This document shows, piece by piece, positions 189 through 6,029 of a stretch of DNA of 64,000 nt. The notes under the pieces are model-generated. The model was not told the DNA's origin. It was given only the letters and a program-made list of their open reading frames with translations, and did not search any database. The number at the start of each line of letters is the position of its first letter. Positions within the stretch are counted from its first letter, which is position 1. The position numbers were made by a program, and so were the translations under genes. This DNA comes from Spirochaetia bacterium (GTDB lineage: Bacteria > Spirochaetota > Leptospiria > Leptospirales > Leptonemataceae): contig JAIOPQ010000027.1 in NCBI GenBank assembly GCA_021413825.1, positions 25,087 to 89,086 of the forward strand, given 5' to 3'.

Positions 189-662
189 CTATGAAATCTT
201 TTTACTGCCTTGAATTGCCATTACACTTAGTACAAATGCGCCTAACCCGAGAAACACCCTGAACCACTGCCAGTTTCCCCAGGTCATGATTGCCAAACTT
301 AATTTTCCCTCTTCAATTGATCGGGCATTGAACGCAGCATTGGCATCCTTGAAGAAAACGAAAAACGTGGCTATTACAAGAATTGATAATATTGCCGACC
401 CAAGCATAACCCATTTTTTATCCTCGTTCCTGGTAAAAAACAGAATCGAAAGGACTAAGGCCAGAACCATACTCGAAATTTCCAGGGGACTATAAAAGTT
501 AACCAATGCCGCCTGGTTCTTGGCATACCAGGTATAAAATTCTGTAGGGGTGAGACCTAACCAGAAAGGTACGATTATTACGGCTTCCGTCAGCATTGCC
601 CCGGACGTTAGGCCTAACACAGCTACAGTCAAGATTCCCAAAATGCGCATTATTGGTTTCAT
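189..662 (-). CDS. DUF1772-like small integral membrane protein
   Basis: ORF 189..755 (-); likely internal start MKPIMRILGIL at 662; four predicted TM segments, overall DUF1772/anthrone-oxygenase-like pattern. Confidence 0.6.
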   Translation of the reverse strand: MKPIMRILGILTVAVLGLTSGAMLTEAVIIVPFWLGLTPTEFYTWYAKNQAALVNFYSPLEISSMVLALVLSILFFTRNEDKKWVMLGSAILSILVIATFFVFFKDANAAFNARSIEEGKLSLAIMTWGNWQWFRVFLGLGAFVLSVMAIQGSKKIS

Positions 663-761
663 TTTATACCTGGCCAGCCACTCCAACTTCAAAATGCCCA
701 GAAGGGACGAGCCGGAGCAACATTGCCACAGAAGGCCGACGCCGTCAATACTCAAAAGGAA

Positions 762-784
762 TCAGGTTCCGGCTTTCTGGGAAG
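762..784. repeat. 23-bp direct repeat copy A (TCAGGTTCCGGCTTTCTGGGAAG)
   Basis: Identical to 2706..2728. Confidence 0.95.
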
Positions 785-1000
785 CCAGCATGACAAGGAG
801 GCTGCGCTTCCCGTGGCATCGGTGTCCCCTGTTTATCAATCACAGACAAATAACGTCGCCTAACGGTATCAAGTGCTCCTGGCGATACTTGAAACGCATT
901 AAACCAGGTAGTTGCGACAACGTTCTATAAATTTTACCAGAGATGCTACGTTATGCGTTATTATCATTGACTCGATGTTCCGAACCGGGGATTCCCAGCT

Positions 1001-2203
1001 ATGATGCGTTTGTATCTGCTGATCCTTCTGTCATTCCTGGCCTGTTCCTCGGAGGCCGGTCCGACGGATCCAGACAAACTCGCTTATTTTAGGGAAACCT
1101 ATGAAGAAAGTAGAAGCGATTTTCGAAAGGAATGCGAGCTACGCAGCACGGCCGGAGCGAACCTAACAACTCTCCCAGTTGCTTCACAATCTGATTCCGA
1201 TCTGACGATTGATCTATGCTACTTACCTGCAACGGACCATCAGGATCGTATCCTGATCATAACATCCGGTGTCCATGGAATCGAGGGCCTCGCTGGCAGT
1301 ACCATCCAACGCTTTTTCATGGCGCAGTTGCTACCCGGCAATCTTTCTCGAACTGGAATCCTGCTGATTCATTCGGTCAATCCATTCGGATTTAGAAACG
1401 AGCGTAGAGTCACAGAGAATAACGTAGATCTAAACCGCAACTTCGCCACATCGCCCGCACTCTTCTCCACCCGCAACGAAGGGTATGCGGACATAAACGA
1501 ATTCTTGAATCCGGAGGAACGGGTTTCCACCAGTACGCTTGCCGATTGGTCTTTTGGCATCCGAGCACTCCTCAATATCGCGCGACATTCAATGCAAACC
1601 CTCCGGCGCGCTGCCCTGCAGGGCCAATACGACCATCCCAGGGGCGTCTTCTTCGGAGGGTCAACGTTTGAACCGCAGAAAGCGATTCTCGAACCGGTGC
1701 TGAGAAAATTCACTGCAAATGCTACGTCCGTCATGCTGATCGATCTGCACACGGGATACGGTACGCGAGGAAAAATGCACTTGCGAAATGCTCATCCAGA
1801 TCAGTCACAACTGAAAGCTATTGAAACGGTCTATTCTGGTTTCCAGATAGATTACGGTGCTCAGAATAATTTCTACGCGCCCACGGGTGAGTTTGTTGTT
1901 TACGTTGGCCAATTATTAAAACCCGGGGTCACGTACGTCCCCATGCTTTTTGAATTCGGGACGCTGGACAGCCAGACAATGACTGGATCTATCGCCTCAA
2001 TTCATAACATGATCCTTGAGAATGCCGGATTCCATCACAATTATGCACACGAAGGGGATAGAATTAACGTTAAGCGACGCTTTCGAGAACATTTCTATCC
2101 CGAATCAGCGATCTGGCGGACTTCTTTACTCACGTCTTGCGAAGAAATCTTACCAAGAATCATCGACCGTTTTAACTCCCTCGAAACAGGGGAAAGGCCT
2201 TGA
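1001..2203 (+). CDS. DUF2817 / M14-like zinc carboxypeptidase family protein, secreted
   Basis: Signal peptide; SGVHGIEGLAGS, NPFGFRNERRVTENNVDLNRNF and LFEFGT motifs typical of DUF2817. Confidence 0.8.
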   Translation: MMRLYLLILLSFLACSSEAGPTDPDKLAYFRETYEESRSDFRKECELRSTAGANLTTLPVASQSDSDLTIDLCYLPATDHQDRILIITSGVHGIEGLAGSTIQRFFMAQLLPGNLSRTGILLIHSVNPFGFRNERRVTENNVDLNRNFATSPALFSTRNEGYADINEFLNPEERVSTSTLADWSFGIRALLNIARHSMQTLRRAALQGQYDHPRGVFFGGSTFEPQKAILEPVLRKFTANATSVMLIDLHTGYGTRGKMHLRNAHPDQSQLKAIETVYSGFQIDYGAQNNFYAPTGEFVVYVGQLLKPGVTYVPMLFEFGTLDSQTMTGSIASIHNMILENAGFHHNYAHEGDRINVKRRFREHFYPESAIWRTSLLTSCEEILPRIIDRFNSLETGERP

Positions 2204-2643
2204 GTGAACCGATTATCGCAAAGGGAGCGTCTAAACCACTGGGGGCCTATCCACATGCAAAAACGGTGGGGAACCTTGTGTTCCTTTCCGGAATAGGCCC
2301 ACGCAGGTCGGTAGACAACTCCATCCCCGGTCTCGAATTGGACGCAGATGGCAACATAATAAAGTATGACTTCGAAGCAGAATGTCATGCAGTGTTCGCA
2401 AATGTAAAGGCTGTCCTCGAGGCCAGCGGCAGTTCCTGGAATCGGATGGTAGACGTGACCGTCTTTCTGACAAACATCAAGCGCGATTTCGATGTTTACA
2501 ATCGGATCTACGGTGACTATTTCAAGGATGTTCAACCAGCGAGAACAACGATTGAAGTGAGTAGATTACCGGCACCCATGGCGATCGAGCTAAAAGTTAC
2601 CGCCAGTCTTTTAGACGTCGAACATTCACGATCTCAAGACTGA
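2200..2643 (+). CDS. RidA/YjgF/YER057c family protein (2-aminomuconate deaminase-like)
   Basis: FLSGIGPR...VFANVKAVLEASGSSWNRMVDVTVFLTN...PARTTIEVSRLP...IELKVTA; 4-nt overlap with upstream CDS. Confidence 0.88.
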   Translation: MSEPIIAKGASKPLGAYPHAKTVGNLVFLSGIGPRRSVDNSIPGLELDADGNIIKYDFEAECHAVFANVKAVLEASGSSWNRMVDVTVFLTNIKRDFDVYNRIYGDYFKDVQPARTTIEVSRLPAPMAIELKVTASLLDVEHSRSQD

Positions 2644-2705
2644 GACTCCCTTTCAATCTCACATACCCGTCTGAGCCAAATTCCTGCCGAGCCCGCCGTG
2701 AAATC

Positions 2706-2728
2706 TCAGGTTCCGGCTTTCTGGGAAG
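2706..2728. repeat. 23-bp direct repeat copy B, overlapping the last 7 codons and stop of the SDR gene
   Basis: Identical to 762..784. Confidence 0.95.
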
Positions 2729-3614
2729 AACTCACTCGCGCATGGTACTCAGCGAAATAATCTTCCAGACGATTTACTCCATACGCCGGAGCAATAATAT
2801 CGATAGTATGCGCCACAGTAGCGAATTTCATGAACTGATAAATTCGTTTGTTGAACGGTCGCAGGAGCGTTACAAAAAATCGTTCGAGCACGATTGGAAT
2901 GCGTAGCAGCCTGGAAGAACGTCCAGTAGCCCTGAGCGCCAGTTCGGTAATCTGATCCCGCGAAAATACTTCGGGTCCACCTACATCAAGGCTCGCTTCC
3001 TGCGAGGCAATTCCCTGAACAATTGCGCGGGCCACGTCCTTCTCATGAATTGGATTGATCCTTGGTTTGCCGCTTCCAATTACCGCACCCAAACCCTTCT
3101 CAGCAAATTGTAGAAAAAGCAAGAGCAGCGAAAAGAATGCAGTAGGACGAATAATTGTGTGCGGGAGTCCTGATTCCTTGAGAGTCTGGACGAACCTTTC
3201 GTGTGCATCAAAGTATTCTGTTTTTTCCAACCCTTGCACAAAATAGAACGACACGTATACAAACTTCTTAATCCGAGCGAACCCTTTCGATTTTAGCGCC
3301 GCATTGAGGAAGTTGCAGTTCGCTTGAAAGTCCACTTCGTAGAAGCTTGCCCGATCGCTGAACTTCAACAGATCGAGACTTGCTCCAACGCAAGAGATAA
3401 TAACATCTACACCCTCGAACGCTTCCGGGGAAATCTCGGCTGTCATTAGATCACCTATTGCATGACTGTCGTACAGTCCTTGAATGCTCTCAAGCCTGGA
3501 ACTCGATCGAGTGAGGGCACGTACGCTGTATCCCTTTGCTTTTAATTCGCGCGCTACATGTTTCCCCAGCGTACCCGATGCCCCGGCCAATAGAACTGTT
3601 TCCATAGTTTTCAT
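2706..3614 (-). CDS. NAD(P)-binding SDR / NmrA-like family protein
   Basis: N-terminal VLLAGASGTLGKHVARELKAKGYSVRALTR Rossmann motif; atypical-SDR pattern. Confidence 0.85.
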   Translation of the reverse strand: MKTMETVLLAGASGTLGKHVARELKAKGYSVRALTRSSSRLESIQGLYDSHAIGDLMTAEISPEAFEGVDVIISCVGASLDLLKFSDRASFYEVDFQANCNFLNAALKSKGFARIKKFVYVSFYFVQGLEKTEYFDAHERFVQTLKESGLPHTIIRPTAFFSLLLLFLQFAEKGLGAVIGSGKPRINPIHEKDVARAIVQGIASQEASLDVGGPEVFSRDQITELALRATGRSSRLLRIPIVLERFFVTLLRPFNKRIYQFMKFATVAHTIDIIAPAYGVNRLEDYFAEYHARVSSSQKAGT

Positions 3615-3658
3615 CCTGCACCGAGACTGATTGCCAGCGGTAGCCTACGAATCCAAAA

Positions 3659-3674
3659 TAGACGCAATCGTCTA
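3659..3674. promoter_or_regulatory. Candidate TetR operator 1: TAGACG-CAAT-CGTCTA
   Basis: Perfect 6-bp inverted repeat in the divergent SDR/TetR intergenic region. Confidence 0.7.
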
Positions 3675-3692
3675 CTTTTTTTGTCCAGAAAA

Positions 3693-3708
3693 TGGACGCC
3701 TGTGTCTA
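3693..3708. promoter_or_regulatory. Candidate TetR operator 2: TGGACG-CCTG-TGTCTA
   Basis: Same architecture as operator 1 with two mismatched arms; starts 34 bp downstream. Confidence 0.6.
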
Positions 3709-3752
3709 TTTTTTTCTTTCTGAGTAAGGGCCTTACTAGGGGTAATCCAGTT

Positions 3753-4367
3753 ATGAAGGCCAGAGAGCGGATTTTAAAGGCTGCAGCGGAACAATTCTAC
3801 AAGACTGGATACCCCGCAACGGGGGTGGGCGATATCCTCAAGGTGGCCGAGGCTCATAAGGCCAGTTTCTACAAATACTTTAAGAACAAGGAAGAACTGG
3901 GCCTGGCATATATTACCGCCAAACGCCGGCTCTATGCAAACCTCTTTCGTTCTTTGATGAAAGCATATCCCCGCTATGCTGATTTTGTAAATCAATGGAT
4001 CAATATCTTAAAGGCTGAGGCCGGCAAAGGAAACGTTTCGGGTTGTGCGTTCGCCCTATTGTACAATCAGACTCTTATATCACGCTCAAGAAGTACGGAG
4101 GCCATTTTCCTTCCTGAAATCCAGGGGGGAATCCAGGACTGGGAAACCATTTTTTTTGAGTATCTTATGGAGAATCTGAAACGAAAGCGAAAGGCTAGAA
4201 GGATTTCGTCGCGCGAGGAAACCTCACTTCGTCAATGGGCCCGACGCATGGTGCTTCTATATGAAGGTGCGCTGCAGGCCTACGCTATGACAGGAAAGGA
4301 AATCTATTTTGAAGACCTGCGCGATTGCCTTCTTATGGCGCCCATACTTTCAGGCAGAGCTGCCTGA
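3753..4367 (+). CDS. TetR/AcrR family transcriptional regulator
   Basis: MKARERILKAAAEQFYKTGYPATGVGDILKVAEAHKASFYKYFKNKEELG HTH; ORF-track start at 3681 is probably too far upstream. Confidence 0.9.
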   Translation: MKARERILKAAAEQFYKTGYPATGVGDILKVAEAHKASFYKYFKNKEELGLAYITAKRRLYANLFRSLMKAYPRYADFVNQWINILKAEAGKGNVSGCAFALLYNQTLISRSRSTEAIFLPEIQGGIQDWETIFFEYLMENLKRKRKARRISSREETSLRQWARRMVLLYEGALQAYAMTGKEIYFEDLRDCLLMAPILSGRAA

Positions 4368-4463
4368 TACTCTTTCTTGATGAAAAGGAGAGATTCTGGA
4401 GCTTCAAGCAAATGACCAAATATGACCTTTGAAAAAGCTTGGGTCGGGGAAAATCCCTGAATA

Positions 4464-4546
<83 letters not shown>

Positions 4547-4628
4547 AATGGCTCTTAAAATCAGAGCAAAGCAAGAAAAGTTTTGACCGAGCACCTGGTC
4601 CAGCGATTTTTTAATTTGGCCTTCATGC

Positions 4629-6029
4629 ATGTCACATCACGAACTTAAAGCAAATCAAAACCTGATGATTTCTGTCTCTGGAATTCGAGGAACCATTCCG
4701 GAGGGTCTCAATCCCAGCTTGATTGCTGACATTGCGCTGGGCTTTGCCGCAACCACTGGCAAACGCGTTGTCCTGGGAATGGACAGCAGAAACACCGGCC
4801 CGCTGATTCGAGATCTCATCGCATCTACGCTGATAGCATGCGGGAAGCAGGTTCTGGACGCAGAACTTGCGCCCACGCCTACGGTTAAGGCGGCTGTGAA
4901 ATTACACAATGCTTCGGGTGGGATCATGATCTCTGCCTCGCACAATCCGCCACAGTGGAATGGACTCAAGCTGATAGCGAACGAGGGTTTCTTCTTTCAG
5001 AAGGAAGACCTCAACTCCATGCTCGCTGCAATCAAGTCGTCTAAATTTCCTCTGGTGGACTACAAGAATCTTGGATCATACAAAAAAGTGGAAGCGGTTC
5101 AGGATCACATAAAATCAGTTTTAAAATTAATAAGTAATACAGAGCAAATCAGAAGTAAGAAATACACCGTAGTAGTAGATGCGGTTGCTGGGGCCGGGAG
5201 AAACGCACTCCCGCTTCTATTAGCCGAGCTCGGTTGCAAGGTAATACCTTTGTATTGCGATGCGGACACTTCGGGCGAATTTCCTCGTCCTCCAGAGCCT
5301 ACTCCAGTTGCCCTCAAGAAGTTCAGCGAAACGTTGCGCAAATCAAAAGCTGCCTGCGGCTTTGCTCTCGACCCGGATGCCGATAGAATTGTACCCGGTA
5401 GTCCGGCGAAGGGTGCAATCAATGAGGAGTATTCACTTCCACTCAGCTTCCTTGGCTTGCCAGAAGTCAAAGTAAAACCCAAAGCCAGGCCACGCGGAAA
5501 AATTCCTTTTGTAGTTAATCTTTCCACTTCCACGTTATTGGATCAGATTGCAGAACCCTATGGCTATGCAATTCTACGCAGCGCTGTCGGCGAGGCCAAC
5601 GTAGTTGCTATGATGCAAAAGAATTCATCCTTCTTTGGTGGAGAAGGTAATGGTGGGATCATTCATTCAAAGGTTCCATCATTTGGTAGAGATTCGCTGC
5701 TGGGTGCTGCACTCATGCTTTCTGCAATGGCACGACACGATGCGAGGAGTCTAGATGATTTAATGGGAATGCTTCCTCCGCTTTTTATGGAGAAGCGCAA
5801 ATTCGATTTAAAGCAAGGTGCCGATGTGCGCGAGGTGTTCACCCGAATAGAAAATCTATTCTCCGGGATGAATGTCGATCGTCGAGACGGACTTCATCTT
5901 GCAAACGCCGATTGCTGGATTCATGTGCGAGCGAGTAACACTGAGCCCGTGCTCCGCGTCATCGCTGAAGCCAGGAATACTACAGATCTCACTCAACTTC
6001 TATCACGCGCTGCGCGCGCTATCAAGTGA
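4629..6029 (+). CDS. Phosphoglucosamine mutase / phosphohexomutase family
   Basis: SASHNPPQWNGLK active site, DPDADR metal-binding loop, GGEGNGG sugar loop, RASNTEPVLRV phosphate loop. Confidence 0.9.
   Translation: MSHHELKANQNLMISVSGIRGTIPEGLNPSLIADIALGFAATTGKRVVLGMDSRNTGPLIRDLIASTLIACGKQVLDAELAPTPTVKAAVKLHNASGGIMISASHNPPQWNGLKLIANEGFFFQKEDLNSMLAAIKSSKFPLVDYKNLGSYKKVEAVQDHIKSVLKLISNTEQIRSKKYTVVVDAVAGAGRNALPLLLAELGCKVIPLYCDADTSGEFPRPPEPTPVALKKFSETLRKSKAACGFALDPDADRIVPGSPAKGAINEEYSLPLSFLGLPEVKVKPKARPRGKIPFVVNLSTSTLLDQIAEPYGYAILRSAVGEANVVAMMQKNSSFFGGEGNGGIIHSKVPSFGRDSLLGAALMLSAMARHDARSLDDLMGMLPPLFMEKRKFDLKQGADVREVFTRIENLFSGMNVDRRDGLHLANADCWIHVRASNTEPVLRVIAEARNTTDLTQLLSRAARAIK

Follow-up and report, generated by a model that had tools for sequence, protein, structure and literature searches.

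Two genes near the left end of the window, a DUF2817 gene and a RidA-family gene, are enclosed by two perfect copies of a 23-bp direct repeat. One copy is the 3' end of the neighbouring gene, which codes for an SDR-type oxidoreductase. The model that we hold with moderate confidence is that a pre-formed DUF2817-RidA pair came to lie at the SDR stop codon through a single insertion. In this model, 23 bp were duplicated in the process, and the pair now forms an inert genomic islet. The window is the whole stretch of DNA that was analysed, 64,000 nucleotides long (C27:25087-89086). It comes from an assembly of 134 contigs that is estimated to be 93.7% complete.

The two-gene unit is composite, because RidA is of a type found in Bacteroidota and DUF2817 belongs to a family of the lineage's own, whose orthologues stand without RidA. 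The pair was found nowhere else: RidA of this clade is absent from 392 other genomes of the host phylum, and DUF2817 is absent from 60 loci of related RidA genes.

The 23-bp direct repeat

The repeat, TCAGGTTCCGGCTTTCTGGGAAG, occurs exactly and in direct orientation at 762-784 and at 2706-2728. The preliminary description had placed the two copies there and had taken the right one for the end of the SDR gene, and both observations hold. The right copy contains the last codons and the stop of the minus-strand SDR gene, whose product ends in ..SSSQKAGT*. The left copy is a non-coding duplicate of this gene end.

Such a repeat is not expected by chance. In shuffled sequence, zero 23-mer pairs are expected even if 3 mismatches are allowed. 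By arithmetic, chance would produce about 1e-4 pairs of identical 23-mers no more than 1,944 bp apart in the whole 4.49 Mb. The next longest direct repeat in the complete 89-kb contig is 16 bp. A search for further genomic copies, suggested in the preliminary description, found none: only these two occur in the whole assembly (4,486,342 bp, 134 contigs) at up to 3 mismatches, so the repeat is not a dispersed one. Likewise, no copy was found in viral contigs.

Similarity between the two copies stops sharply at each end of the 23 bp. No extension of the repeat into the flanks was found; anchored extension gives a score of 0, and local scores of the flanks equal those of random pairs. No relic of the SDR gene is recognisable beside the left copy, in the intergenic stretch 5' of DUF2817 (785-1000), and in-frame sharing is limited to ASQKAGT. 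The 23-mer can fold into a short, imperfect hairpin of too little strength to carry an argument.

Gene content of the locus

The DUF2817 gene lies on the plus strand at 1001-2203 (Pfam PF10994, E=3.7e-67), followed on the same strand by the RidA gene at 2200-2643 (Pfam PF01042, E=1.6e-25). The two overlap by 4 bp, such that the TTG start of RidA lies on the stop of DUF2817 (TTGA). A stretch of 62 bp (2644-2705) separates the RidA stop from the right repeat. At the right border, a weak HxlR-like match of 16 residues scored E=0.001 against a tiny database; estimated for the whole search space, it was put down to chance.

The proposed target is a full-length gene for an NmrA/NAD(P)-binding SDR-type oxidoreductase on the minus strand (2706-3614). 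Its end looks natural by comparison, since homologues align with it over almost their whole length and have similar lengths. A TetR-family regulator is encoded divergently from it, on the plus strand at 3753-4367. Between these two genes, at 3655-3712, lie the imperfect boxes AAAATAGACGCAATCGTCTACTTT and AAAATGGACGCCTGTGTCTATTTT in inverted relation, which are plausible as putative TetR operators. A tRNA-Leu(GAG) gene follows at 4463-4547 on the minus strand, and then a phosphohexomutase gene on the plus strand (4629-6029).

To the left of the repeat, a minus-strand gene at 189-662 codes for a membrane protein resembling Anthrone_oxy, which we take to be the DUF1772 family. Most of the gene identities given in the preliminary description are confirmed by Pfam: DUF2817, Ribonuc_L-PSP (RidA), NmrA/NAD_binding_10 for the SDR, and TetR. 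The DUF1772-like gene has homologues, and its match to Anthrone_oxy is sub-threshold (24.1 bits against a cut-off of 27.3). The start listed for it, a TTG at 755, is probably too long. The TGA of the left repeat copy shares its frame with some 33 open codons that lead into the ATG of this gene at 662 (window 662-764).

Origin of the RidA gene

The Ribonuc_L-PSP domain that characterises the RidA group of the Rid family is present in the window protein, and its match to TIGR00004 falls under the cut-off (91 against 106 bits). The nearest solved structure is 6izh, the 2-aminomuconate deaminase AmnE.

A scan of named genomes gave 60 close relatives at 59-77% identity, nearly all from Chitinophagaceae or other Bacteroidota. 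Nearly all of these (57 of 60) adjoin genes of the kynurenine pathway. An aminomuconate-semialdehyde-type dehydrogenase is found at 57 of the loci and a kynureninase at 54; homologues of ACMSD, 3-hydroxyanthranilate dioxygenase and kynurenine monooxygenase occur at 49 each. These names were assigned from the sequences of the neighbours in one locus, L106. The kinship with kynurenine/3-hydroxyanthranilate cluster genes that is expected of a 2-aminomuconate deaminase is thus present among the relatives.

Within the host phylum, no relative of the protein at E<=1e-25 was found in 392 other genomes. The best RidA found at any other locus, in 100 relatives of the host, reaches about 40% identity. 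In a tree, the window protein falls inside a Bacteroidota clade with support of 99/97. Because these 392 genomes lack a comparable relative, and given the Bacteroidota matches at 59-77% and the position in the tree, RidA is most likely a xenolog, transferred from a Bacteroidota-type source. The transfer is not fresh, since the best DNA identity to Bacteroidota is 72-73% and the GC content of the gene (49.1%) equals that of the rest of the window (48.4%).

In its present host, RidA is probably no longer part of a kynurenine pathway, because a search of the host genome gave no match to kynureninase. A search of the host for 3-HAO gave no signal, and the controls likewise gave none, so this search says nothing about the host.

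Origin of the DUF2817 gene

The DUF2817 protein is related to metallohydrolases of the AstE/AspA type, and by eye its N-terminus resembles a lipoprotein signal. All three genus members have a DUF2817 orthologue elsewhere, in conserved gene order (contig C99 of the host, C5 of G001 and C71 of G002). These orthologues share 63-75% identity with each other, and no RidA gene was found beside any of the three.

The window copy is 54-58% identical to the genus orthologues, with 55% to the host's own copy on C99 and 58% to that of G001. In a tree it branches outside the pair formed by the G000 and G001 orthologues, and support for this is moderate (82/81). Judged by these comparisons, it is an additional, divergent copy, which may have arisen by an old duplication or been acquired from a relative. 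A pattern scan of named genomes for DUF2817 found nothing. A selenoprotein reading of in-frame stops in DUF2817 homologues was considered and rejected; the one that is read through, in G001, is the terminal stop.

As a whole, the unit has an ordinary tetranucleotide composition, at the 79th percentile. Between the repeats there is no transposase gene and no recombinase or transfer gene. The best match for terminal inverted repeats is 10 bp with two mismatches. No match to the DNA of the unit was found in plasmids or phages.

Surroundings and relatives

The unit lies in a variable region. Synteny with G001 reaches C27:14800 on the left and resumes at the tRNA-Leu (C27:29549) on the right. In place of the intervening 14.7 kb (C27:14801-29548), G001 has about 8 kb of unrelated genes, such as adenylate cyclase-like and histidine kinase-like genes. 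The region is bordered by a conserved SDR-family gene and by the tRNA-Leu, whose 3' end faces it, and the part inside the window runs from the start to 4462. With G002, DNA is shared only from the tRNA-Leu rightwards. No second copy of the tRNA-Leu 3' end, as the far end of a larger island, was found on the part of the contig that was searched.

A side observation concerns the DNA left of the window. At L073:5088-7249 (C27:22087-24248), a gene for an MbnB/TglH/ChrH-type RiPP enzyme is followed by genes for a DUF2063 protein and a small Cys-rich lipoprotein-like peptide. These genes adjoin an ECF sigma factor and an NrsF-type regulator. Presumably this is a bufferin-type modified-peptide cluster.

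The whole TetR-SDR-DUF2817-RidA-DUF1772 block is absent at this place from both genus-mates, G001 and G002. An empty site is not visible in them because the entire block from TetR to DUF1772 is missing, not just the two genes. The preliminary description had proposed that collapsing the repeats restores an ancestral TetR/SDR/DUF1772 order. Homologous loci do not support this: SDR and DUF1772 are adjacent in none of five SDR loci from the phylum, three SDR loci from plasmids and four DUF1772 loci, several of which covered only one or two kilobases per side. A TetR/SDR/DUF1772 ancestor is possible.

Models for the origin of the repeat

In the insertion model, a DUF2817 copy of the lineage's own and a RidA gene of Bacteroidota type would first have come together as a pair. 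A single insertion would then have placed this pair at the stop codon of the SDR gene, inside the 14.7-kb variable region beside the tRNA-Leu. The insertion would have duplicated 23 bp of the SDR 3' end, leaving the SDR gene intact. Fill-in of a staggered break could account for the duplication, as could integration of a circle sharing the 23 bp.

Several observations agree with this model. The repeat is perfect, unique and not extendable, and neither genus-mate has the block here. We infer that the two copies of the repeat lie at the two ends of a single insertion. The still perfect state of the non-coding copy points to an insertion that took place long after the transfer of RidA. Insertion with duplication of the SDR end was already the first proposal of the preliminary description; its undispersed repeat, preserved SDR end and composite, partly foreign pair stand, and its collapsed ancestral order is unsupported. 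Against the insertion model are the lack of an empty site in the genomes compared, the unsupported SDR-DUF1772 arrangement in relatives, the ordinary composition of the unit, and the absence of transposase, integrase and terminal inverted repeats. The 23-bp copies may also not mark the borders of one event.

This last point leads to the strongest rival, so ranked because only position connects the repeat with the pair. A short templated duplication could have copied the SDR 3' end once, while a break some 1.9 kb away was being repaired, with the pair already present. A copy made in this way would look identical to an insertion scar. The abrupt halt of homology on both sides of the 23 bp fits such an event, as does a unit with neither recombinase nor terminal inverted repeats. 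Since the whole block is missing from the genus-mates, the pair could have come with its neighbours. However, two coincidences would be needed: that the copies enclose exactly the oppositely oriented pair, and that one of them is exactly a gene end. We regard this origin as unlikely, though it deserves serious consideration.

Another possibility, which we consider doubtful, is that the 23 bp are the attL and attR sites of an element resembling a CIME, either decayed or mobilised in trans, in the SDR 3' end. Elements integrated by tyrosine recombinases are flanked by direct repeats of 8-60 bp and often sit at the 3' end of a gene without disrupting it (PMC5704250). The geometry seen here fits this description, and the genome has five tyrosine-recombinase matches. 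However, all five are off this contig, and the unit contains neither a recombinase nor a transfer gene. The absence of a third 23-mer from the assembly means that there is no resident element with a matching att site. Moreover, the SDR is an accessory gene and not a conserved housekeeping target.

The repeats may also matter for the present stability of the unit. They could now allow its deletion at low frequency, by replication slippage or RecA-independent recombination. There is precedent in E. coli, where RecA was not needed for recombination between perfect 46-bp repeats separated by 886 bp, and where PCR detected the excision of an island with no perfect repeat longer than 20 bp (PMC5426353). 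However, such deletion is a general property of short repeats. PCR across repeats can yield chimeras, and for the E. coli island with perfect repeats of 11-20 bp only PCR products were seen, a deleted clone being unobtainable (PMC5426353). We think it improbable that the repeats act in this way here.

The preliminary description had suggested, as an alternative to simple insertion, that the unit is excisable through its repeats. The data do not bear this out: there is no recombinase in cis, none of the five tyrosine-recombinase matches is on the contig, and neither a circle nor an empty site was found. Active excision is possible. A more specific version, in which a 1.94-kb, recombinase-less islet of two genes excises and integrates via a 23-bp gene-end site using host recombination in trans, is quite improbable. 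Most likely the insert is static.

Finally, a false join or loop at a shared k-mer might be imagined in a fragmented assembly (134 contigs, 93.7% estimated completeness), but it would require the 23-mer at both ends of a foreign stretch, and DUF2817 and the composition fit the lineage on a contig that is otherwise syntenic with G001 on both sides, which makes an artefact highly improbable.

Comparison with known systems

The unit shares two features with a CIME (PMC5704250). Short direct repeats stand at both borders with no recombinase inside, 23 bp falling in the known range, and the end of the target gene is kept by one repeat, the right copy supplying the SDR C-terminus and stop. In contrast, the unit measures only 1.9 kb and carries two metabolic-type genes with no relic of an integration or transfer gene. 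The genome holds no matching att site or resident element elsewhere, and the target is an accessory gene. CIME ancestry would be recognised by integrase or transfer genes, or by att sites common to such an element, and none of these was found. Likewise, the transposase and terminal inverted repeats of a transposon or IS element are both absent.

An example of a recombinase-less island is the Microcin H47 island of E. coli, which is flanked by short imperfect direct repeats (PMC5426353). Like the unit described here, it lacks a recombinase in cis, and its perfect repeat stretches of up to 20 bp are comparable to the 23 bp. However, it is 13 kb long against 1.9 kb, and its att sites are about 147 bp at 77% identity. 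PCR gives evidence that the H47 island excises, and empty sites occur in natural strains; for the present unit no empty site was found in the genomes compared.

For RidA, the closest comparison is AmnE (6izh; PMC6742747). It is the best match among solved structures, and the nearest relatives of RidA sit in kynurenine/3-hydroxyanthranilate clusters. In contrast, the 2-aminomuconate-deaminase-like gene of the window adjoins DUF2817 in a host with no detectable kynureninase, where its product is a putative deaminase.

Taken together, the unit behaves most like a passive genomic islet with the border geometry of a CIME. If excision were demonstrated, the few mobile islets that lack a recombinase would gain a further member; failing that, the case is one of routine genome plasticity beside a tRNA gene. 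The repeat looks like a scar left by an ordinary and probably one-off insertion, not like the sign of a new kind of mobile element. As such it is a clean scar, an illustration of how a small gene pair, brought together by horizontal transfer, can settle beside the end of a gene without breaking that gene.
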